A DNA stretch of 47,036 nt from IMG/VR virus record IMGVR_UViG_3300035010_000008, positions 1-47,036 of that record; one strand, written 5' to 3'. Of this stretch, positions 5,250 to 47,036 are shown piece after piece. Numbering within the stretch: the stretch's first letter is position 1; each line of letters starts with the position of its first letter. Source of the stretch: a virus. The notes below the pieces were generated by a model. That model did no database searches and had not been told where the DNA came from. It saw only the letters and a program-made list of their open reading frames with translations. The position numbers and the translations under genes were made by a program.

Positions 5250-8200
5250 AGCTGGTTCACCGTGAGCGTGCCGAAAATATAATCGAGCGCGGTCCCGCTG
5301 CCGCTGCTCTTCACGATTGCGCAGCCGACCTCGTAGTTGGTGTTTGCGGACAAGCCCGTCTGGCTCTGGCTGATGTTGAGCTGGCCCTCGACCTTGTTCA
5401 ACTCGCCGTCGGGAATGGTCCATGTGGCGCCGGACGATCCCCCGGTCACGACGCCCCCGGAAAAGGTGCTCCACGATCCTCCGCTGCCCGCCAGCCGATA
5501 GAACAGTTGCCCCTTCATGGTGACAGTACGGCCAGCGGAATAAGCCGCCTCCGTGACCTGATAGCGCGACGCCAGAACGCCTTGCAGCGAACCCGACGCG
5601 TCCGTCCCCATCGTCACCACGTTGCTGGTGGGCGCCGTCGGCATCGTCGTCGTGCCGATATTCCCGCCGATGTTGCTCGTCGTGATCGATGTACCCGATT
5701 GGGGCGGCGCAGTGTCTTTGACGATTTCGACGGCTATGCGCTTGGTGATGGGCGTGCCGCTATAAGTGCCGGTGACGTCGACGTAACCGTTGCCCGCCAC
5801 CGCGGTGATCGTCACCAGCCCGCTTGAGCCGATGGAGGATGTCGTATTGTTATCGGTCTTGCCCCAAGTCGTGGTGGCCGAGACGTCGGTCCCGCCATCG
5901 GTGAAGGTGGCCTTGCAGGTGACCGGAAGCTGACCCGCTTTGATCGTGCCGTCATAGTCGGCGAGGATTTGCAGGACGGGTTTGGCGATGTCGAGCGAGC
6001 GGCCGTTGACGCCGTCCGCTCCAGGATTTCCGTCGGTCCCGGCCGGGCCGACCGCGGTGAATGCTAGGATCTTGCCGAACTGCACACCGCTGGTCAGGAA
6101 ACTGGTGTCGAGGAACAGCACCAGGTCGGCCGGCACCGCGACCGCGCTAGTGTAAAAGATGGTGCCGTTCTTCGAATAAGTGACCGATTTGCCGTTATAG
6201 GTGACCGCGAACCGATCGTTGAGCGCGACGAACCCGAACAGGCTGTGCGACAGCCCGCCGCTTTCATAAACCTGCAGCGTGGTCCCAGCGATGTAGATCG
6301 CGAAATCCATGCTGAGATAGCTGGCATCGGTCGTCGGGTCGGTGTTGAGGCCGACCATGAAGCTATGCGGGCCGCTGTCCACGACGAAGCTGACCGTCGC
6401 GCCGCCCTTGTAGCTCTCGGTCGAATGGATGCTGGCGTTCCACGACGAACCGCCCGCGACCTTGATCAGTTTGTTGGCCGCGACGATCGCGTTGCTGTTG
6501 AGTGCGGTGAGACCGAAATTCGGGGGGCCGACATAGGGCGACCAGACATAATCAGCGGGGTTGGTGCTTTCCGTTGCGGTCGTTTTGCCCGTGGCGACGC
6601 CTTGATAGACCCGAGTGCCGGGGCTGCCGGTCGTGAAGTTGAAGGTGCCGTCCGGCGCGTCGGCATAGGCGTACCAGGTGTAATAGGTGACACCGGGAGC
6701 GCCGGGAGCGCCGGGAGCGCCAGCCGTGCCTGGCGCGCCTGGCGCTCCGTCGTTGCCTGCGGTGCCCGCGGCGGTGAATGACAGGATGCGGCCAAAGGGA
6801 ACGCTGGGCTTGTTAATAAAGGACGAATCGAGAAAGAGCGCCAGATCCGGCGCAGGCGAATTGTTGGTGAAGAAGGGAGCGCCATTTTTCGAATAGACGA
6901 CTGTCTTATTGTTGTAGGTTAAGGTGAAGACATCGCCGACCGCCGCGGCGGGATAGACTCCGCCGACATTCGCGCCATTCTCGAAAACGAGAACACTTGA
7001 CCCGCCTTGCACATAAATTGCAAAATCCAACGACGTGTAGTTCGCATCGGTCGTCGGATCGGTGTTGAGCCCGACCATGAAAACATCGATATAATCAACG
7101 ACAAAGCTGACCGAGGCGCCGCCGGTATAGCTCTCGGTAGAATGGATCGATGCATCCCATAGACCAGGTGTCCCGCCCGTCTTCTGGATCTTTGCTCCCG
7201 CCAGCTGCGTGTTTATCGCTGCAAGCCCAAAATTTGGCGGCCCCGCATACTGCGACCAGGCATAATCGGCGGGGTTGGTGCTTTCGGTCGCCGTCGTCTT
7301 ACCTGTCGCGATGCCCTGATAGACGCGATTGCCCGGATTGCCGGTGGTGAAGTTGAATGTGCCGTCTGGCGCGTCGGCATAGGCGTACCAGGTGTACAGC
7401 GTGACCCCGTCGATTCCGTCCGTGCCGTCCGTGCCGGGCGCACCATCGGCGCCGTTGGCGATCGTCAGCACCGGCTCCGACCATGCCCCGAAATCGGCGC
7501 TGCCGCCCATGCCCGGCTTGAATGCGATCGCGGTGGCGGAATAGGCCGGATCTGACCCGGCCGGAATCGTCGCGCTCCACCCGGCCGGCGGCGTCGTGAC
7601 CTGCGTGGTAAAGTCGAAGCTGCCCCCGGTCGGTGTTGCTGGCGCCGCCGCGCTCCGCTTCCAGATCGTCTTTTCGATGATCGAGGAGCCTTCGAACGGG
7701 TCGGCTAGCGGCGTCGCCTGCGAAAGGCCCTCGACGGTCAGCAATAGCGTGCTGACATTCTCGCCGACCTCGATGCTGAAATCCTTGAAGAAACCGTAGA
7801 GCGTCAGGCTGTCGGTGCCGTCGTCGGCGATCCAGAGCGACGGCACGGCGCGCACCGATGCGATGCGGTTCGCGACGTCGTCAAGCGCCTCGGTGCGGAT
7901 CAGCGCGCGGGTGCTCATGCGCTTCGCCCAGGCGCGCGGCACGACGGTCACCTCGCCGAATTCGTCGACATCCTTGCGGCTGAAATCATCGATGCTGGCC
8001 GTGGGCGATTCCCCGGTGACGCCCAGAGTGACCAGCGTGCCGACCAGCAAGGTGCCGACCGATACCGGACCGGATCCGCTCACCGTGACCGTGATGTTGC
8101 CGCCCGTCCCGGGCAGGTCCAGGAAGGTGATTGGCCCGGGTCCGACCGCGACCATTTCGTCATAGCCCGTGGCTTGCACCCGTACCGTGGAGCCGATCAC

Positions 8201-8932: not shown

Positions 8933-11900
8933 GCCGCGGCGCTCACCGTAGCGATCGCGTCGCCGCCGGACTGGCTGGTGACGTCATCCATCTTTTTCGC
9001 CACGCGCCCCGTGTTGGCCGCGATCGTCGCCAGCGCGGCGGTCAGGTCGCGGCGCATCTGCTCCGTTTCCGCGCGCAGATCCTCGAACCGGGCCGCGGCC
9101 TCGGCGTTATTGTCATTCACGGCGAGGGTTTCGGGCTGGCTGTTGGCGCCGGCATTCAGCAGCGCGGCGTTGGTCGCGGCAGGGCTGCCGCTGATCGCGC
9201 CGATCAGACCGTTCGTGGCTTCAAGGCTGGCCGCTATCTGCGCCCGGATCCGGTCGAGCTCCTGTCGGCTGGTCGCAGCGGCCGACGCGGCATCGAGCAG
9301 GGCTTTCGACAGGCCGGGCAGGCTCTTCGCCGCGTCCATATCACCGCCGCGCGCCGCGTCAGTCGCGGCGTTGAACTGACCCTGCAGCTGGGCGAAGCTG
9401 TTGCCGCCCCCCGCATCGGAGAGACCGCGGATCCGGCGAACTTCATCCATAATCGAATCGCCCACCGACGCCCACGCCTTGCGCAGCTCGTCGGCGGCCT
9501 TGGCCGCGGCCTGCGCGTCCTGAATGGCCCAGATCTCTTGCTGCAGGGCGCGGTTACTCGCGTCGAGCTTGGCGAGCTGCAGCGCGCGCAGCGCCGCGGT
9601 GTCGCCGCGCAGCTCGAGCAGCTGGCGTTCGAGATCCTGTCGCTCGGTCGCGATATCGGCCGCGCTCTTCGCGCCCGACATCGCGGCCTGCAATTCGGCG
9701 AAGGCCGGGGCGAGCTGGAGCAGGGTGGCATAGGCCGCTTGGCCCGCCGCAGTGTTGAGGTTCTGCGCCTCGACCAGCTGGCGGAACCCGGCCAGCGTCG
9801 TGGGCATCGTCAGGTTAAGGCTCTGAAACACCGAAGCCATCTGGGCGGTGCGCGCCGCGGCCTGCTCCTCGCGGGTGTAAAACGCCGAGAAATAGCTATC
9901 GACCGCGTTCGACAGGTCCGAAATGCTATCGAACTGATCCGCCAGCGCGACCTTGGCGTCGAGGCTCATGCCCGTCGCGGCCTGGCCGAGCAGCGTGAAC
10001 GCCGCGGTCACCGATTCGGCCACCGACGCCACGCGCACGATGGTTTCGAACAGGCCTTCGCCGGCGCGCTGGAAGCGCTCCATGCCGGGGAAGGCGGCGC
10101 GCGCCATGTTGTCGGCCGCCGCGCCGAAGACCGCGGTCAGCTTCTCCTCGATCTCGGCGCCGGTCAGGCCCTTCAGATCGATCTTGCCCAGGTTGACGAC
10201 GAAACCGTTCAGACGCTGCTGGATATCGGTCGTCGCCGCGCCGAGTGGCCCGGCGGCCGCAACGATCGCGTTGTTGAACTCGCGCAGGATCAGGGCGAAC
10301 TGGTTTTCGAGCGTTGGATCGGCGGCGGAGAAGGTGGTCGACGTCTTGTTGCTGGTCGTGAAGCCAAGGAACTTCTTCTTTTTCTGGACCGTGGAAAATA
10401 GCTCGGCTTGGAAGCCGCTGGTGAGAATGTCGCCCAGCGTCTGCGCCCCTGCCGACAGGCCGCTGCCGAGCAGCGTCGTCTTCGTCCCGAACAGGCCGCC
10501 CAGGATACCACCGATTAGCGGGATCTTGCTCAGTACCGAACCGATGCCGGATGTCTTGAAGCCTTCGGCGATGCCGCCGCCGTCGGTGATCCCGCCTGCG
10601 TCGCGCACGATCAGGCTGGCAAAGCCGCCGATCTGGCTTTCGATGCTGCGCAGCGACGCCGCCATCTGGCGGGAATAGTTCAGCATCAGCGTGTCGACCT
10701 CTTTCAGAGCGTCGATGCTGTTCTTGATGCTCTCGCTCTGCGCGGAGCTGTCGCCCAGCACGGTGCCGGTCCCGGCGTTGGTCTGCGGCGCGGTACCGCT
10801 ACCGCCGCCCGACCCGCCCAGGAGCGCGATGCCGGCGGCGACAAGCGCGGCACCCGTCGCGGCCATCGCAGCGATGTTGTAGGGGAAGGGCAGCTTTGCC
10901 TGGGCGGCGATGCCCTCGGCCCCGGCAGCGGTGGCGCGCGCCGCGCTGTTCGATACCGACGATACCGTCTCGGCGATATCCTGCACGATCGCCTTCACCG
11001 ACATGGCGAACTCGAAGGCGCGGAACACCTTCTCGGCCGTCATCAGGGCTTTGTAGCCCGCGCTCTTTTCCTTGAAGAAGCCCTTCGCCGCCGACGCCAT
11101 ATCGCCGTACAGCCCGACCTGCGCCGTTGACGTCGCGAGCTGGAATTTGGCGATTTCGCGCTGGCGGCCCGCGTCGCTTGTCTGCGCCGCCATATTGGCG
11201 CGGTGGATCTCGGCTGCGCGCTCTTCCTGCGCCCGGAAATTGGCATAGATGGCGGTGACGTCGCCCAGCGCCGCCCCGACGTCGCCGAACGCGTCAGACA
11301 GCCCAGAGGCGGCGTTCTGGACGTTCTGCGCGATCAAGTCCCATTTGTCGGCCGTGAAGCTGAGAGCGTCGTTCAGATCGCGCTGCGCCGCGGCGCTCGC
11401 CTCGGTCGCGGCGGCGATTTCGATCTGCTGCGCAATATAGGCTTCGCGGCGCGACGGGTCGCTGAACTTGGCCTCGGCTTCCTGCGTCGCCTTCAGCAGC
11501 GCCAGCGCCTCGACGCGCTCCGCATTGGTCGCGCCGATCAGGCGCAGTTCCTCGCGCAGCTCGGCAAGGCGGTTCGCGCCCGCGCCGGTGTCGCGGTTGA
11601 ATTGAGCGGCTTCCTCGGCCTGCCGCATGCGCTCGCGCTCCGCCTGCTGGTCGGCAAGAGCGTCCATGGCCTTGCGAGCCTCCTCGGCCAGCCCACGCTG
11701 CTGCGCGGCCTGTGCGGCGGCGAGGAGGGGTAGGTCGGCGATCTGATCCTTGACCAGTTCGGCGGCGCGCTCGGCCGTCACGTTCCCCGCTGCGACCAGC
11801 GCGTTCGCCTCTTCCTGGATCGCGGCCTGCTCGCGCATCGCGGCGGTCGACTTGGCAGCGCTCGACACGCGCTCGGCGATCGCCAGGCGCACCTGCCGGT

Positions 11901-34767: not shown

Positions 34768-35241
34768 CTATCGGGGCGTTGTTCCGGCCCCCACGACGGA
34801 ATGGATGCTGGACATTTCGGTAAGGATCACGTCGACAATGCCGCCCAGCTCGGTGTGGCTGACGTGGCCGTCTTCGTTGGCGTCAGCGACGACCGCGGCG
34901 ATTCGGGCGGCGGCAGCCCCGGCGCGGCGCACCGATGCGGCCTCGTCGACCTCCATCGGCGCCACGCTGAACCCCATGCGGGTCGCGACGCGCTGGAAAG
35001 CTTGCGGGGGCAGGGCGGTGAACACGCGCAGGAAGACGTCGAGCGGCATCGCCGACCCGTCGGCCTCGACATAGCTGCGCAGGCGGCGCTCCCATGTTTG
35101 GAGCGCGCCGGGATCATCGCACGTCGCAGCGGCCAGCTCCGGCCAGGTGAAGCGCTTGCCGTACCCGCCGACGTACATGCGCAGCGTGTCGCCGATCAGC
35201 ATTTTTACAGCCGGAGCGGAAAACTGCCCTGCTATTTCCAT
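34768..35241 (-). CDS. Early regulator-like protein with EF-hand-like loop
   Basis: 157 residues. The N-terminal 95 residues (SAPAVKMLIGDTLRMYVGGYGKRFTWPELA ... TWERRLRSYVEADG) look like a helical DNA-binding domain. The C-terminal part carries DANEDGHVSHTEL, which fits the twelve-residue calcium loop of an EF-hand, followed by a helix. As the second gene from the early promoter it occupies the place of a CII-like regulator. That role is inference. Confidence 0.6.
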   Translation of the reverse strand: MEIAGQFSAPAVKMLIGDTLRMYVGGYGKRFTWPELAAATCDDPGALQTWERRLRSYVEADGSAMPLDVFLRVFTALPPQAFQRVATRMGFSVAPMEVDEAASVRRAGAAAARIAAVVADANEDGHVSHTELGGIVDVILTEMSSIHSVVGAGTTPR

Positions 35242-35307: not shown

Positions 35308-35616
35308 TTACGCCGCCTCGCGCTGGCGCAGGCCGCAGTCGCTGCGGATGCAGCTGGCGCATTCCGGATCCTCGGAGCGTCGGTCGCAGACCCCGCACGA
35401 CGCGACGAACTCGGTAATGAAGCCGCGCGCCTTGGCCTCGGTGGTCGGCCAGATGCGGCGACCGTTCTTGAGGTCGCGCACGAAATGAGGGTCGCCCATC
35501 GCCTTCCGGCCGAATGTGATCTCAGACATGTCGGCATCACTGACAAAGTCTTCGATCGCTTTGATCAGGTCGGCGTGGGGCGGGTCGGCGTCCGCTTCGG
35601 GAGGGGATTGCGTCAT
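35308..35616 (-). CDS. Cro-like small DNA-binding protein
   Basis: 102 residues. AIEDFVSDADMSEITFGRKAMGDPHFVRDLKNGRRI resembles a helix-turn-helix family frequent in alphaproteobacteria and their phages. The C-terminus has four Cys (CGVCDRRSEDPECASC), a likely zinc site. It is the first gene leftward of the operator-bearing promoter and divergent from the repressor, the place of Cro. The ATG at 35616 falls a few bases from the predicted transcription start, with no ribosome site, so a leaderless message is likely. A longer frame would include the operators. Confidence 0.7.
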   Translation of the reverse strand: MTQSPPEADADPPHADLIKAIEDFVSDADMSEITFGRKAMGDPHFVRDLKNGRRIWPTTEAKARGFITEFVASCGVCDRRSEDPECASCIRSDCGLRQREAA

Positions 35617-35625
35617 GCTTGAGGC

Positions 35626-35654
35626 AACTAGCGTAGGAATGATCCTACCGTCAA
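35626..35654 (-). promoter_or_regulatory. Early leftward promoter PL with operator O1
   Basis: TTGACG (minus strand, 35649-35654) is followed at once by the perfect palindrome GTAGGA-ATGA-TCCTAC at 35633-35648, which fills the spacer to a weak -10 (about 35626-35631). Repressor bound here would block polymerase. The layout mirrors the rightward promoter at 37271. Confidence 0.65.
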
Positions 35655-35663
35655 CTAGAAAAA

Positions 35664-35679
35664 GTAGGACACGTCCTAG
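35664..35679. promoter_or_regulatory. Repressor operator O2
   Basis: GTAGGA-CACG-TCCTAG, a near-perfect copy of the operator half-sites, centred 31 bases from O1. It lies between PL and the repressor gene and could control both directions. Confidence 0.65.
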
Positions 35680-35700
35680 CATGGCGCGCGCGTCGGTGTT

Positions 35701-35716
35701 GTGGGAAGCGTCCCAC
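35701..35716. promoter_or_regulatory. Repressor operator O3 overlapping the repressor ribosome site
   Basis: GTGGGA-AGCG-TCCCAC is a perfect palindrome with the same length and spacing as O1 and O2 and an A-to-G change in each arm. It covers the ribosome binding site of the repressor and ends at its ATG, so it could give autorepression by roadblock. Confidence 0.55.
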
Positions 35717-36409
35717 ATGGATAGCGCATTGCAACGATTCATCCGCAAAGCGGTCGAACTGGGCGGAAAAGCCCGCGATCACTATGACAAGGAAATCCAG
35801 AGGGCCGCCGGCACCACCGGAAAGGTGCTCTACGATATTGATCGCGGGAAGAGCAAAAATCCGAACACGACGACGCTGCACGCGATCGCCAAGGCGCTCG
35901 GCCAGCCGTTTGATTTGCTCCAGCGCGCGGTCGCCGGAGAAGAGGTGGTGCCGGTCGAGCCTGGCAGCGAGCCCAGCGCCGCGGTTCCTGCGACGACGAA
36001 CACGGCCGATGTCGTGGTGCTCGATTTGACGCTCTCCATGGGTGCGGGCACCAACATCGACGAGTATATCGAAGAAACCACCTATCAGTTCGACGTCGAT
36101 TTCATCCGGTCGTTTACCCGCACGGCGCCGCACCGGCTGCGCATTGCGACCGGCATCGGCGACAGCATGTTTCCAACGCTGATGCCGTCCGATGCGGTGT
36201 GGTTCGACACGACGCAGACGATGCTGAAGCTGCAGGACAAGATCTGGGCCTGCTCGATTCGCGGCGGCGGAGCGATCAAGCGCCTGCGCATCGGCGACAA
36301 CCGAAAGATCATTGTGCTTTCGGATAACCCTGCGGTACCAGACGACATCGTCGACGAAGAGGATGTTCGGATCTTCGGCCGCGTCCTTCGATTGATGCGT
36401 GACCTATAG
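35717..36409 (+). CDS. CI/LexA-type prophage repressor
   Basis: 230 residues. A helix-turn-helix lies near 30-65 (TTGKVLYDIDRGKSKNPNTTTLHAIAKALG). An S24 peptidase domain follows, with the catalytic Ser in GDSMFPTLMPSD near 148 and the Lys in GAIKRL near 187. Such repressors cut themselves when RecA is activated, giving SOS induction. The ATG at 35717 is preferred (GGGAAG upstream); a Met at 35681 would add twelve residues with no ribosome site. Five operator palindromes surround the gene and its downstream partners. Confidence 0.9.
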   Translation: MDSALQRFIRKAVELGGKARDHYDKEIQRAAGTTGKVLYDIDRGKSKNPNTTTLHAIAKALGQPFDLLQRAVAGEEVVPVEPGSEPSAAVPATTNTADVVVLDLTLSMGAGTNIDEYIEETTYQFDVDFIRSFTRTAPHRLRIATGIGDSMFPTLMPSDAVWFDTTQTMLKLQDKIWACSIRGGGAIKRLRIGDNRKIIVLSDNPAVPDDIVDEEDVRIFGRVLRLMRDL

Positions 36410-36418
36410 GGGGCGTGA

Positions 36419-36841
36419 ATGAGCGACCTGATTTGGTTCATCGTTCTGGGGCTAGGGGCGCTCGGCGGCTTCATATTTTACCTGATCCAGGACGCCAAGA
36501 AGTCGCAGGAACTCGCCGGGATGCATCAGCCTGCCCAGCCGCTTGAGCAGACCGGACAAGCCGGAGTTACAGCACCAGGCGTTGCCGGCGGAGGTTGGCT
36601 CGTCGCGGGGTGGGTGCTGGCAGCTGCGGGGGTGATCGGGCTGGTAGTGGGGCTTTTGCTCGACACGTCGGTCGCTGCATACAGCCCGACGATGTTTGGC
36701 GGGCCGACCGAGGTCGTCAACCTCGACCTGCTTTTTCGGAAGGGCGTTGTCGTGGCTTGCGGCATCGCTGCAATCGCCGCCGGCATCTTCTGTCTCGCTG
36801 TGGCCGCAATCCTTCGGGCGATTCATTCCCGCGCTGCCTGA
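36419..36841 (+). CDS. Three-helix membrane protein of the lysogenic operon
   Basis: 140 residues with hydrophobic segments near 3-22, 58-82 and 107-133, and a Gln/Gly-rich cytoplasmic or periplasmic loop between the first two. It starts nine bases after the repressor with a GGGGG ribosome site, so it should be expressed in the lysogen. Membrane proteins in this position often block superinfection by related phages. No family is recognised. Confidence 0.7.
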   Translation: MSDLIWFIVLGLGALGGFIFYLIQDAKKSQELAGMHQPAQPLEQTGQAGVTAPGVAGGGWLVAGWVLAAAGVIGLVVGLLLDTSVAAYSPTMFGGPTEVVNLDLLFRKGVVVACGIAAIAAGIFCLAVAAILRAIHSRAA

Positions 36842-37233
36842 TGCCAGCTCAGATCACCTTGCCGATCGTCGGCGTCGACTATCCCAACAAGCGCGGCGTG
36901 ACGCGCCGCTTTGCGGTCGATCTGCTTGCGCCTGGCGATCCCGTCGAGCTGCGGGCCGAGCCCCAGAACCCAGCCGATGAAAACGCGGTGGCGGTATATT
37001 CGATCGAGGGCGTGCAGATGGGATACATTCCAGCGCAGCGGGCGCCCTATGTCGGGAAACATATGAAAAATGGCGACGTGACGGCTATTTTTCAGGGGAA
37101 GGGCGGGCGAGGGGCCTTCATCCGGATCGCCTTTGGCGACGAAGAGCCGGTGCTGCCGCCACCTCCGGAAAAGAACGGGTCCGAGCCCGATTGGTGGCCG
37201 GACGACGCGCCCGAAGACGATTGGGCGCAATAG
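36841..37233 (+). CDS. HIRAN-domain protein of the lysogenic operon
   Basis: 130 residues. Residues about 5-95 form a HIRAN domain (PIVGVDYPNKRGVTRRF ... AEPQNPADENAVAVY ... QMGYIPAQRAPYVG), a fold known to bind 3' ends of single-stranded DNA at damaged or stalled forks. The tail is acidic and Pro/Trp-rich. It overlaps the membrane protein gene by TGATG, so repressor, membrane protein and HIRAN protein form one operon. It may sense DNA damage or act against incoming phage; this is inference. Confidence 0.8.
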   Translation: MPAQITLPIVGVDYPNKRGVTRRFAVDLLAPGDPVELRAEPQNPADENAVAVYSIEGVQMGYIPAQRAPYVGKHMKNGDVTAIFQGKGGRGAFIRIAFGDEEPVLPPPPEKNGSEPDWWPDDAPEDDWAQ

Positions 37234-37242
37234 CCGCGACGC

Positions 37243-37268
37243 GAAAAGTAGGAACTATCCCACTTTTC
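37243..37268 (+). terminator. Operator O4 within a terminator-like hairpin
   Basis: GAAAAGTAGGA and TCCCACTTTTC pair at ten of eleven positions around an ACTA loop, directly after the HIRAN gene and followed by a T-rich stretch. The inner 16 bases (37248-37263), GTAGGA-ACTA-TCCCAC, are a variant repressor operator. The element could both end the lysogenic transcript and bind repressor. Confidence 0.6.
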
Positions 37269-37270
37269 AT

Positions 37271-37299
37271 TTGACAGCGTAGGAATGGTCCTACATATC
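37271..37299 (+). promoter_or_regulatory. Early rightward promoter PR with operator O5
   Basis: An exact -35, TTGACA (37271-37276), is followed by GTAGGA-ATGG-TCCTAC at 37279-37294 and a -10 near 37294-37299 (CATATC). The operator lies wholly in the spacer, so repressor binding would occlude the promoter. It drives the 8-kb right operon that starts at 37328. Confidence 0.75.
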
Positions 37300-37327
37300 C
37301 GGGTCCGTCACCAAGACGGAGCCCCTG

Positions 37328-37453
37328 ATGATCCCCGCCCACGAACATCCCGACACCGCTGAAACCGTCATCGACACGGTGTTCGCGCGCATTGCCGTGG
37401 CATTCGCAGCTCTGACGATAATCGTTCCCGCTATCGTGGCGGTGGTCCGGTGA
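37328..37453 (+). CDS. 41-residue membrane protein, first gene of the right operon
   Basis: A short frame from ATG 37328, with GGAG seven bases upstream, to the TGA that overlaps the next GTG. The product has a polar start (MIPAHEHPDTAETVIDTVF), then about 20 hydrophobic residues ending in Arg. It is probably a single-pass inner membrane peptide, expressed first after induction. Function unknown; small early membrane proteins can affect host energy or exclusion. Confidence 0.6.
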   Translation: MIPAHEHPDTAETVIDTVFARIAVAFAALTIIVPAIVAVVR

Positions 37454-38909: not shown

Positions 38910-39484
38910 CCCAAGCGTTTCCCCTGCAATGGCCGGACGGAATGCCGCGCACGCAGCGCCATCAGGCGTCGACCTTTCGCTCGACCCTCGCCAGCGCGCT
39001 GAAAAACGTGCGCACGTCGATCATCGCCTTTGGCCGCGACAGCGGCAAGCAGGTGACCGACGTCATCATATCGTCGAACGTGTCGCTCGGCATGGAGCGC
39101 CCCGCAGATCCCGGCGTCTCGCTCTGGTTTACATGGGACGATTCCCAGCGCTGCATCGCCGTCGATCGCTATCCGAAGCCCGAAGACAATTTGCAGGCCA
39201 TCCACCACATCCTTGAAGCGCGTCGTACCGAGGTGCGGCACGGCGGGCTCCATATCGTGCGGCAGACCTTCAAGGGCTTCCTCGCGCTGCCGTCTCCTGA
39301 TGCGGTCGACTGGCGCGCGGTGCTTGGTTTCAAACCCGGCGAGCTGGTGACTCCGGCCGCGATCGACGTTGCCTATCGCGATCGCGCGAAAGACGCCCAC
39401 CCCGACAAGCAGGGTGGTGACGAAAACGCCATGGCTATCCTGAATTTGGCGCGGGCCGCGGCGAAGGAGGCGGTGACCGCATGA
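38906..39484 (+). CDS. J-domain protein
   Basis: 192 residues. The last 55 form a compact J domain: VTPAAIDVAYRDRAKDAHPDKQGG with the HPD tripeptide near 165, then a final helix. J domains recruit and activate DnaK. The first 135 residues hold a separate alpha/beta domain (DVIISSNVSLG ... VSLWFTWDDSQRCIAVDRYP ... LHIVRQTFKGFLALP) of unknown fold. It is likely to direct host DnaK to a phage target, for example in replication as lambda P/DnaJ do; this is inference. Confidence 0.85.
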   Translation: MTQAFPLQWPDGMPRTQRHQASTFRSTLASALKNVRTSIIAFGRDSGKQVTDVIISSNVSLGMERPADPGVSLWFTWDDSQRCIAVDRYPKPEDNLQAIHHILEARRTEVRHGGLHIVRQTFKGFLALPSPDAVDWRAVLGFKPGELVTPAAIDVAYRDRAKDAHPDKQGGDENAMAILNLARAAAKEAVTA

Positions 39485-41004
39485 TAATCGAAAATTCAAC
39501 GAAGAGGAGGGCGTCCGTGCCGAAGAAAATATACAGACTCGTGGAGCATCCGGAGCACGAAGCGCGCCTCCCGGAGTGGCGTGACCGCTGGATCGCGAAC
39601 GCCATGTCGACAGCCGCGATGACCGAAGATGATCGGCAGGCCTGCATTGCGGCTGTGAACGGCATGTACGCTGCGGCCAAACTGCCGCCGCCGAAGCATA
39701 TCGTTTTCGTGCCGTCGCCGTTCGTGCTGTCATTTGCGGCGGGCTTCGCGGCGTCGATCTGGTACCGTAGCAAAAATCCGGATTTCAGGCCTGCGGCGAC
39801 CCGTGCGGCGACCTATGCGGCGACCGATGCGGTGACCGATGCGGTGACCGATGCGGCGACCCGTGCGGCGACCGATGCGGCGACCCGTGCGGCGACCGAT
39901 GCGGCGACCGATGCGGCGACCGATGCGGCGACCCGTGCGGCGACCTATGCGGCGACCGGTGCGGTGACCGATGCGGTGACCGATGCGGTGACCGGTGCGG
40001 TGACCGATGCGGCGACCGATGCGGCGACCGATGCGGCGACCGGTGCGGTGACCCGTGCGGCGACCTATGCGGCGACCGATGCGGCGACCGATGCGGCGAC
40101 CGATGCGGCGACCCGTGCGGTGACCCGTGCGGTGACCTATGCGGCGACCGATGCGGCGACCGATGCGGCGACCCGTGCGGTGACCGATGCGGTGACCGAT
40201 GCGGCGACCCGTGCGGCGACCCGTGCGGCGACCCGTGCGGCGACCCGTGCGGCGACCGATCTCTCTAAATGGTATGTTGTCCCAGCGGACATGCGCCGCA
40301 TCGCCGACGATCTGGGTGTCGGTGACTTCGGGCTGCGCTGCGCTGCCATGGCGTGGCAGATGTACTCCGGGGGCAATCAGTGGTCGGCTTACGACAGCTA
40401 CCTGACATTCTTTCAGGACGTGGCCGAGCTGCCGCTCGATTACACCGCCTATAATCACTGGCGTACCCTCGCCGAGCGCAGCGGCCCGCGAATGATGCAT
40501 CCGGATTTCTGCATGATCTCCGACCGGCCGGAACTGCTGACTGTCGATGACAACGACCAGCCGCACGGCGAAGACGGGCCGTTCTGTCGCTGGCGTGACG
40601 GATCGGCGCTTTATTCGTGGCATGGCGCGCGCGTACCGGCTCGTTGGATCGAAGATCGCGCCACGCTCGACCCCGCCGAAGTGATCTGCGCCGAGAATGT
40701 CGAACACCGGGCAGCCGGGGCAAGCATTGTCGGCTGGCCGCGCATGTTGTCCGTTCTGAAAAGCCGCGTGATCGACGACAGCGGGTCAGCGGATATTGGC
40801 GAGCTGATCGAGCTTGAACTGCCCGGCCTCCCACGGCCCGGCCGGTTTCTCAAGGCCGCATGCCCTCGAAACGGCATTATCGTCGAAGGCGTCCCTTACG
40901 TCTCTGACATCGACAATCTCCCGATCGACACCGCGCTTGCCGCGCAGGCCTGGCGGATCGGCGACCCTCAATCAGAATATGCGCACCCGTCGGTGCGCAC
41001 CTGA
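39481..41004 (+). CDS. DUF6745 protein with 39-copy AATD repeat domain
   Basis: 507 residues. Residues 1-104 are a helical lead with one hydrophobic stretch ([15 protein letters not shown]). Residues 105-260 are 39 tandem tetrapeptides of the form Ala-(Ala/Val)-Thr-(Asp/Arg/Tyr/Gly). Residues 261-507 carry a DUF6745-like domain ([28 protein letters not shown]). The start overlaps the J-domain gene by ATGA. The repeat is in frame throughout, with no stop, so the whole is coding. Copy number probably varies between strains. Function unknown. Confidence 0.85.
39793..40260 (+). repeat. 39 tandem 12-bp repeats within the DUF6745 gene
   Basis: 468 bases made of exactly 39 units GCG-G(C/T)G-ACC-NNT. 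Only two places vary: the second codon (GCG or GTG) and the fourth codon (GAT, CGT, TAT or GGT). Because the unit is twelve bases, gain or loss keeps the frame. Third-codon bases are invariant, a sign of recent expansion or gene-conversion-like homogenisation. Confidence 0.97.
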
Positions 41005-45584: not shown

Positions 45585-47036
45585 CTATTCAGCCGCTGCC
45601 CGCGCCCTCGGCCCCTTCGGCGCCTTATCCGCGTTCCGCATCGGCAGCCCCAGAAATTCCACCGGATCCGGCATCCCGTCGAGCAACATGTCGGCCCATT
45701 CCTGCGCCAGCTCGCGCCGCCGCGGCATGTACGAGGCGCGGTTATAGGCGCCCTCAACCTTGTCCTTGGGGACGTGCGCCAGCATCAGATCGATCACCGC
45801 CCGATCGCCGTCGGCCCGGTCCGGCCGTTCGTTCATGATGGTGCTGAAGGTCGCGCGAAACCCGTGCGGGACGTGCTTTTGATAATATCCGGCGCGGATC
45901 AGCACGGCGCGGATCGTATTTTCGCTGATCGGGCGGTGCGAATGCCGCTCGCTGGGGAACAGCAGGGGGAGGTGGCCGCTGATCTGGCGAAGCGCGCGCA
46001 GGATCTCGACCGACTGACGAGCCAGCGGCACCAGGTGATCCCCGGCCTCCTCGAGCTTGCGCTCCGCGTCGCCCTTCATGCGCGCCGCGGGGATGCGCCA
46101 TAGCGGCTCGGTCCCGTCCAGATCCTCGAACTCGGCCCAGCGCGCGCCGCCCAGCTCTCCCGGCCGCACCGCGGTCAACGCGAGCAGTCGCAGCGCGAAC
46201 TTGGTCCCGGCCCGGGTCCGCTCCGCCTCGCAATCCTTGACTAGCTGGCGCGCTAGGCGCAGCCGCTCGTCATTGTCATGCACCCGGTCGATGATCGCGG
46301 CCTGTTTCTTGGCGGGCGGGACGCGGGGCAGGGCTTTCGACATGCTCGCCGCGGGGTTGTGGCGCGCGAGCCCGGCCGGGATGGCGTAGATGTAAACATC
46401 GCTGATCCGCTGGCAGACCCGGTGCGCCGTCTCGATCGCGCCGCGCTGCACGATGATATTGAGCACGTCGAGCACCTTGGGGCTTTCGATGCCGGTGATC
46501 GGCAGATCTCCAATTTCAGGGAAGACGTCGCGCTCGAGCGATCGCAGCACGTCACCGGCATGGATCGGCGACCAGCCCGCGCGCGGCCGATCGACCCAAT
46601 GGCTGGCATCGCGCGGCGACCAGGCGCCCTCGCGCGAATCCCGCCAGGCGCGGAACTTCGCCACGGACCAGCCCGATTTGAGCTCGAACCACTTAATCGC
46701 GACGGCTTCGAAGGTGTTGGCATTGTCGAGCGCCTTGGCGCGCGCCGCGACGCGCTTCTCGACCGCGGGATCCTGATCCGCGCGCAGCGTCGCCTTCGCC
46801 GCGTCGCGACGGGCGCGCGCATCGAGCAGGGTGACCGCGGGGTAGGAACCGAGCGCGAGCGTCTTCTGCGCGGGCTTCCCCTTGGCGTTGCGGCCATAGG
46901 TATAATTCATCCGCCAGTGCTTTCCGCCGGCGGTCGTGACGAACAAATAAAGCTGTTCCGCGTCGGCGAGCTTGTACGCCGAGTCCCGGGGCTTCGCTGC
47001 CTTGATTTTCGCATCGTTCAGCATCGCTCGCCCCAT
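45585..47036 (-). CDS. int: Phage integrase, P4-type tyrosine recombinase
   Basis: 483 residues (479 if Met at 47024 is used). An N-terminal DUF4102 arm-binding domain (DAKIKAAKPRDSAYKLADAEQLYLFV) is followed by a core-binding domain and a catalytic domain. The catalytic set is visible: Arg in LTAVRPGELGG, the HxxR box in PHGFRATF, His in LAHVP and Tyr in EGAYNRAS. It is longer than most of the family because of an extra stretch near 130-170 (GAWSPRDASHWVDRPRAGW). It lies at the prophage edge, facing in, and should recombine at the tRNA site beyond the window. Confidence 0.93.
   Translation of the reverse strand: MGRAMLNDAKIKAAKPRDSAYKLADAEQLYLFVTTAGGKHWRMNYTYGRNAKGKPAQKTLALGSYPAVTLLDARARRDAAKATLRADQDPAVEKRVAARAKALDNANTFEAVAIKWFELKSGWSVAKFRAWRDSREGAWSPRDASHWVDRPRAGWSPIHAGDVLRSLERDVFPEIGDLPITGIESPKVLDVLNIIVQRGAIETAHRVCQRISDVYIYAIPAGLARHNPAASMSKALPRVPPAKKQAAIIDRVHDNDERLRLARQLVKDCEAERTRAGTKFALRLLALTAVRPGELGGARWAEFEDLDGTEPLWRIPAARMKGDAERKLEEAGDHLVPLARQSVEILRALRQISGHLPLLFPSERHSHRPISENTIRAVLIRAGYYQKHVPHGFRATFSTIMNERPDRADGDRAVIDLMLAHVPKDKVEGAYNRASYMPRRRELAQEWADMLLDGMPDPVEFLGLPMRNADKAPKGPRARAAAE

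Follow-up and report, generated by a model that had tools for sequence, protein, structure and literature searches.

Five conserved operator-like sites bracket the repressor operon of a temperate phage in a putative lambda-type switch

In phage lambda, 2.3 kb separate the operator clusters OL and OR, with the cI, rexA, and rexB genes in between, and looping has been shown for this arrangement (PMC3708714, PMC5880393). The rexA and rexB genes are expressed together with cI from the same promoter (PMC11077077). The locus described here, in the IMG/VR record IMGVR_UViG_3300035010_000008 (the window, 47,036 bp in total), resembles lambda in combining a repressor composed of helix-turn-helix (HTH) and S24 domains with a divergently oriented Cro-like gene and with operators placed in the early promoters. 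Two operator clusters bracket the repressor operon in both cases, and additional lysogenic genes follow the repressor. The initial annotation had set the locus apart from lambda by the distance between the clusters and by the genes they enclose, a contrast that does not hold given the dimensions and gene content of the OL-OR interval. The differences lie elsewhere: lambda has 3 + 3 operators and this locus 3 + 2, so that three per cluster are found on one side only; the sites follow each other at 31 and 37 bp, fill the whole -35/-10 spacers, and share the sequence GTRGGA-N4-TCCYAC; the third operator directly adjoins the repressor start codon; and the position of rexAB is taken by a cargo slot whose genes differ between phages. 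As judged from sequence, the locus would work like the lambda switch, yet it is not the lambda arrangement itself.

The record is a viral contig with portal, terminase, and major head genes on its leftward side, and both of its ends carry an integrase. Together, the head and packaging genes and the integrases identify the element as a temperate phage. The two integrases (positions 4-1239 and 45588-47036, both on the minus strand) are different proteins, one of which may come from a neighbouring element. The plus strand also holds an open reading frame with a long run of short repeats (39481-41004).

The repressor (35717-36409, plus strand; 230 aa) has an N-terminal HTH and a C-terminal Peptidase_S24 domain with Ser150 and Lys188, and matches Pfam PF00717 (E=6e-11) and PHROG 4 (E=5e-27); its HTH is of the Cro/C1 type, with a weak Pfam match. 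A search of the repressor profile against solved structures by sequence returned no matches, but its AlphaFold (AF2) model (pLDDT 79) matches the folds of 186 CI, LexA, and lambda CI in a fold search. The best of these matches is phage 186 CI, at only 13-15% sequence identity. With LexA and other self-cleaving S24 repressors, the protein shares the Peptidase_S24 domain and its Ser and Lys dyad, and this dyad is invariant in the repressor alignment. Unlike LexA, it carries a Cro/C1-type HTH rather than the LexA DNA-binding domain, and its relatives do not keep the Ala-Gly or Cys-Gly bond at which SOS-inducible repressors are canonically cleaved: an AG pair is present at residues 110-111, where relatives have PG, DG, or EG. 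A nearly invariant pair, Met108-Gly109, is located about 42 residues before the serine.

The five 16-bp sites reported in the initial annotation were all recovered by motif search, each at its position. None is assigned a strand. Three form the left cluster, namely O1 (35633-35648; GTAGGAATGATCCTAC), O2 (35664-35679; GTAGGACACGTCCTAG), and O3 (35701-35716; GTGGGAAGCGTCCCAC), and two form the right cluster, O4 (37248-37263) and O5 (37279-37294). Four sites match GTRGGA-N4-TCCYAC exactly, while O2 has one mismatch, its final G; O4 fits the degenerate pattern with unequal arms (GTAGGA and TCCCAC). Both of these irregularities had been described correctly. When one mismatch was allowed, the window contained these five sites and no others, compared with 0.10 expected from dinucleotide shuffles of the record, and none of 100 shuffles reached five sites; a separate set of 200 shuffles gave a mean of 0.125 and a maximum of two matches. 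At up to three mismatches, the record held 34 matches against 33.5 expected, and only tight matches are therefore meaningful. The earlier impression that the set is specific, gained without finding further copies, is thus borne out for the record, and the proposed search of related prophages extended it to lysogens, as follows.

A similar pattern, searched against 84,980 bacterial and archaeal species, matched four sphingomonads and one Microbacterium. The latter match consists of only two GC-rich sites and was taken as chance. The four prophages with the arrangement belong to Sphingomonas oleivorans, Novosphingobium indicum, and two other Sphingomonas; in one prophage, the right-hand sites are spaced at 33. 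In all four lysogen chromosomes (3.9-5.0 Mb), every exact copy of the motif lies inside the prophage switch. The repressor type itself was found in four of 401 genomes of the host family, one of the four being marginal.

Among viral sequences, a single-protein search with the repressor returned no relatives in viral_contigs, and relatives were found instead through the operator-pair pattern and through the neighbouring helicase and Cro-like genes. The pattern of two sites separated by 15 bases occurred in six stretches on five contigs among 2.9 million viral contigs. Seven IMG/VR phages carry the 3 + 2 arrangement, with five sites per contig and seven in one contig. In one phage (IMGVR_UViG_3300017692_000062), the right operator pair and its promoter are duplicated 3.9 kb further on, with the pairs at reverse-strand positions 5893-5939 and 9781-9827. 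The phage record collection contained distant repressors only, all below 60% identity and the best listed at 27-35%, as well as one distant Cro-like relative from an Agrobacterium phage. Several of the relatives recovered through the helicase-methyltransferase (L007-L022) have a quite different repressor HTH and different operators combined with a similar S24 domain, a pattern that reads as mosaic immunity. No published account of this five-operator switch was found in the literature searched, most subscription papers being outside its reach.

Independent geometric evidence comes from a set of 25 phages, including the window, that was drawn by the Cro-like gene alone and not by the motif and whose operators are of the GTAGGA or GTAGGG type (GTAGGR phages). 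All 25 have an O1-O2 distance of 31 bp, an O2-O3 distance of 37 bp, and a gap of zero between O3 and the repressor ATG; all 25 also have a downstream operator adjoining TTGAC with a partner 30-33 bp upstream. Among relatives, this right pair is located 0.7-3.3 kb downstream, at a TTGAC promoter. A second, non-redundant set of 26 phages was used for base-level comparisons; the left-hand spacings were imposed on its selection, and the independent evidence on spacing is that of the 25-phage set. Phages with GTGTGA, GTGGGA, GCGGGT, or GTTGGA operators follow the same plan but differ in their inner spacings, with 23 bp frequent in the left cluster, although some of their O2 and O3 calls are uncertain and a few loci have no right cluster within the stretch examined. 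That the palindromes could be chance or repeat-derived sequences with no regulatory role draws on their short length and on nothing else; the count in the record, the confinement of exact copies to the switch in lysogens, and above all a geometry conserved across otherwise divergent sequence refute this explanation and leave it a negligible probability. The five palindromes are real. Their coordinates and the two-cluster layout in relatives also uphold the earlier statement that they bracket the repressor operon, and their behaviour across relatives favours reading them as operators of a lysis-lysogeny switch.

The sites overlap both putative early promoters as well as a putative repressor promoter, as assigned from sequence and conservation. 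In the leftward promoter PL (35625-35654, minus strand), O1 directly follows the -35 element TTGACG (35654-35649) and fills the spacer up to a -10 element read as CTAGTT or TAGTTG (35631-35625). In the rightward promoter PR (37271-37300, plus strand), O5 follows TTGACA (37271-37276) and fills the spacer up to CATATC or ATATCC (37294-37300). The initial annotation had likewise placed two sites in the spacers of oppositely directed promoters. A generic sigma-70 scan of the region found no promoters, and the promoter assignments therefore rest on conservation: the TTGAC beside O1 is retained at each position in at least 90% of relatives, and the one beside O5 in the 25 relatives with a right cluster, which were partly scored on TTGAC. 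Only a few bases separate the inferred PL start from the downstream ATG of the Cro-like gene (35616, minus strand), apparently in relatives as well, which suggests a near-leaderless mRNA. In both clusters of the record, the promoter-filling site has a partner at 31 bp, a shared spacing that had escaped the initial annotation. This distance corresponds to about three helical turns and would thus place the paired dimers on the same face of the DNA, whereas the 37 bp between O2 and O3, about three and a half turns, would place O3 off that face.

The deviating base of O2 is itself conserved. Across the 26 non-redundant phages, O2 terminates in G, A, or T and never in C, whereas O1 and O3 invariably terminate in C. 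A hexamer starting at the 14th base of O2 (TAGCAT in the record; 35677-35682, plus strand) has A in its second and T in its sixth position in all 26. These two are the most conserved bases of the -10 box. We attribute the conserved mismatch to the position of this base within the -10-like element of the repressor promoter, an explanation that the initial annotation had lacked, and the overlap of O2 with that promoter implies autorepression through O2. The promoter has no recognisable -35 element and may need an activator. The centre of O1 lies at about -48 relative to the inferred start of the repressor transcript; in lambda, the activating site is centred at about -42. O3 appears to be constrained in a different manner, since its left arm is GTGGGA in 25 of the 26 phages, even where the other operators are GTAGGG, while the left arm of O1 is GTAGGA or GTAGGG in all 26. 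This pattern hints at a second constraint at O3, perhaps ribosome binding.

A rival reading is that the palindromes act mainly in RNA, with the repressor start codon covered by an O3 hairpin and O4 serving as a terminator. For O4, RNA folding does predict a hairpin (-10.1 kcal/mol, z -4.25), in keeping with the earlier placement of one site in a hairpin after the operon, and the invariable contact of O3 with the ATG in GTAGGR phages would also suit a role in the transcript. However, the leader with O3 shows no unusual stability (z -1.2), and the arms of O3 are mismatched in GTAGGG phages. As a terminator, O4 was rejected: its AAAA and TTTT flanks are not retained in the relatives read, and it is absent from the terminator scan. 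Furthermore, O1 and O5 have the same sequence and lie in promoter spacers, upstream of the transcripts concerned. A predominantly RNA-based role is highly improbable. We read O4 instead as the probable upstream operator of the rightward promoter.

A separate RNA feature was found downstream of PR. The transcript would begin with a 5' hairpin (37301-37324, plus strand) that takes up, in its 3' arm, GGAG (37318-37321), the ribosome site of the first rightward open reading frame (37328-37453, plus strand; 41 aa, no family match). A hairpin of this type, with the first gene's ribosome site in its 3' arm, is present in 39 of 41 PR leaders (mean z -3.4), compared with 68 of 230 control starts (mean z -0.1) that were not matched for promoter distance. 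The leader sequences differ between phages, so that the structure is kept more than the sequence. Such a hairpin might serve to delay translation or to protect the 5' end. Searches against Rfam yielded nothing above the gathering threshold in the region.

The first gene of the leftward operon encodes the Cro-like HTH protein (35308-35616, minus strand; 102 aa), a partner of the repressor that the initial annotation had overlooked. It is followed by a 157-aa gene (34768-35241, minus strand) with a very weak CII-like match (phrog_101, E=0.013) and, further along the leftward side, by a helicase-methyltransferase gene. The structural model of the Cro-like protein contains HTH-like helices at residues 15-27, 32-39, 45-50, and 57-74; its fold match is weak (best E 0.6), with HTH regulators making up most of the top matches. 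One might therefore suppose that the operators serve the repressor only and that this protein is not a Cro and regulates something else, given that its operator binding is deduced from sequence. Yet its residues change with the operator. Mutual information with operator type, calculated without regard to kinship, peaks at residues 43, 33, 37, 48, and 44, all in or beside helices 2-3 of the HTH, and is near zero for residues 53-72. The combination DPHFV accompanies GTAGG operators, DRHFV GTGTG, DWRLI GCGGG, and DKPFV GTTGG; one locus (L120) was misassigned to another operator in this run, which if anything lowers the signal. In addition, the gene is divergent from the repressor and has O1 in its promoter in GTAGGR phages. 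A repressor-only role of the operators is thus unlikely. This covariation of recognition-helix residues is the best evidence in the present analysis for a sharing of the operators by the repressor and the Cro-like protein. A parallel comparison of the repressor HTH with GTAGGA versus GTAGGG operators singled out no residue, as the two groups resemble separate clades.

Taken together, the five sites are very probably the operators of a lambda-type switch common to a CI-like repressor and a divergently encoded Cro-like protein. From the computed site positions, specificity, geometry, repressor family, and covariation, we infer how binding, order of occupancy, autoregulation, and induction would proceed. 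Repressor dimers on O1 and O5 would block the two early promoters, PL and PR, by occupying their -35/-10 spacers, aided by cooperative binding to the helper site 31 bp upstream of each on the same face of the DNA. At high concentration, the repressor would stop its own synthesis through O2, which covers the -10 element of its promoter, and through O3, in the leader at the ATG. Upon loss of the repressor, both early operons would start, and the leftward operon would produce the Cro-like protein, which, in line with the covariation, would bind the same sites and keep the repressor promoter off.

In addition, a loop formed by the repressor, as happens in lambda, might join the two clusters and be essential. 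Relatives have similar sites in two clusters 0.7-3.3 kb apart, which would be compatible with this analogy, lambda looping over 2.3 kb; but the need to repress PR fully explains the second cluster as well, and the distance between clusters varies fourfold. This spread neither supports nor excludes looping, and we regard an essential loop as conceivable, with the balance tipping slightly against it.

Along with the repressor, the operon would express lysogenic cargo and a HIRAN gene, as lambda expresses cI-rexA-rexB. The cargo gene (36419-36841, plus strand; 140 aa) has hydrophobic stretches and likely encodes a membrane protein, and the gene at this place varies between phages. The HIRAN-domain protein (36841-37233, plus strand; 130 aa) matches PF08797 (E=1e-11) and phrog_27141 (E=6e-27) and is a common last gene of the operon. 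The two span a hypervariable slot (36419-37233) that was compared over the same interval in 28 relatives. A HIRAN gene lies between the repressor stop codon and the right cluster in 17 of the 28, while most of the other slot genes, called by a simple composition rule, fall into no shared cluster; examples include a KilA-N protein, an acyltransferase, a TM2 protein, and several DUFs. In three phages, the interval leaves hardly any space for cargo. By analogy, the slot likely holds genes for lysogenic exclusion or conversion.

More broadly, the locus may represent a modular cassette carried by prophages of sphingomonads and perhaps of other alphaproteobacteria. Such a cassette would set several operator specificities on a near-constant frame together with a hypervariable lysogenic slot and an RNA layer, namely the 5' hairpin on the rightward ribosome site and the contact of an operator with the repressor start codon. 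We advance this reading tentatively, at somewhat less than even confidence; if it is true, clearing of the promoters would not suffice for induction, owing to the RNA elements. The switch family combines a fixed layout, with the exact spacing kept in more than two dozen sphingomonad viruses, with several natural repressor-Cro-operator specificities. It thereby offers a test set for the evolution of operator spacing and specificity, as well as switches for alphaproteobacteria that are independent of one another, and the variable gene between the clusters marks where accessory genes expressed in the lysogen, possibly exclusion genes, may be found.
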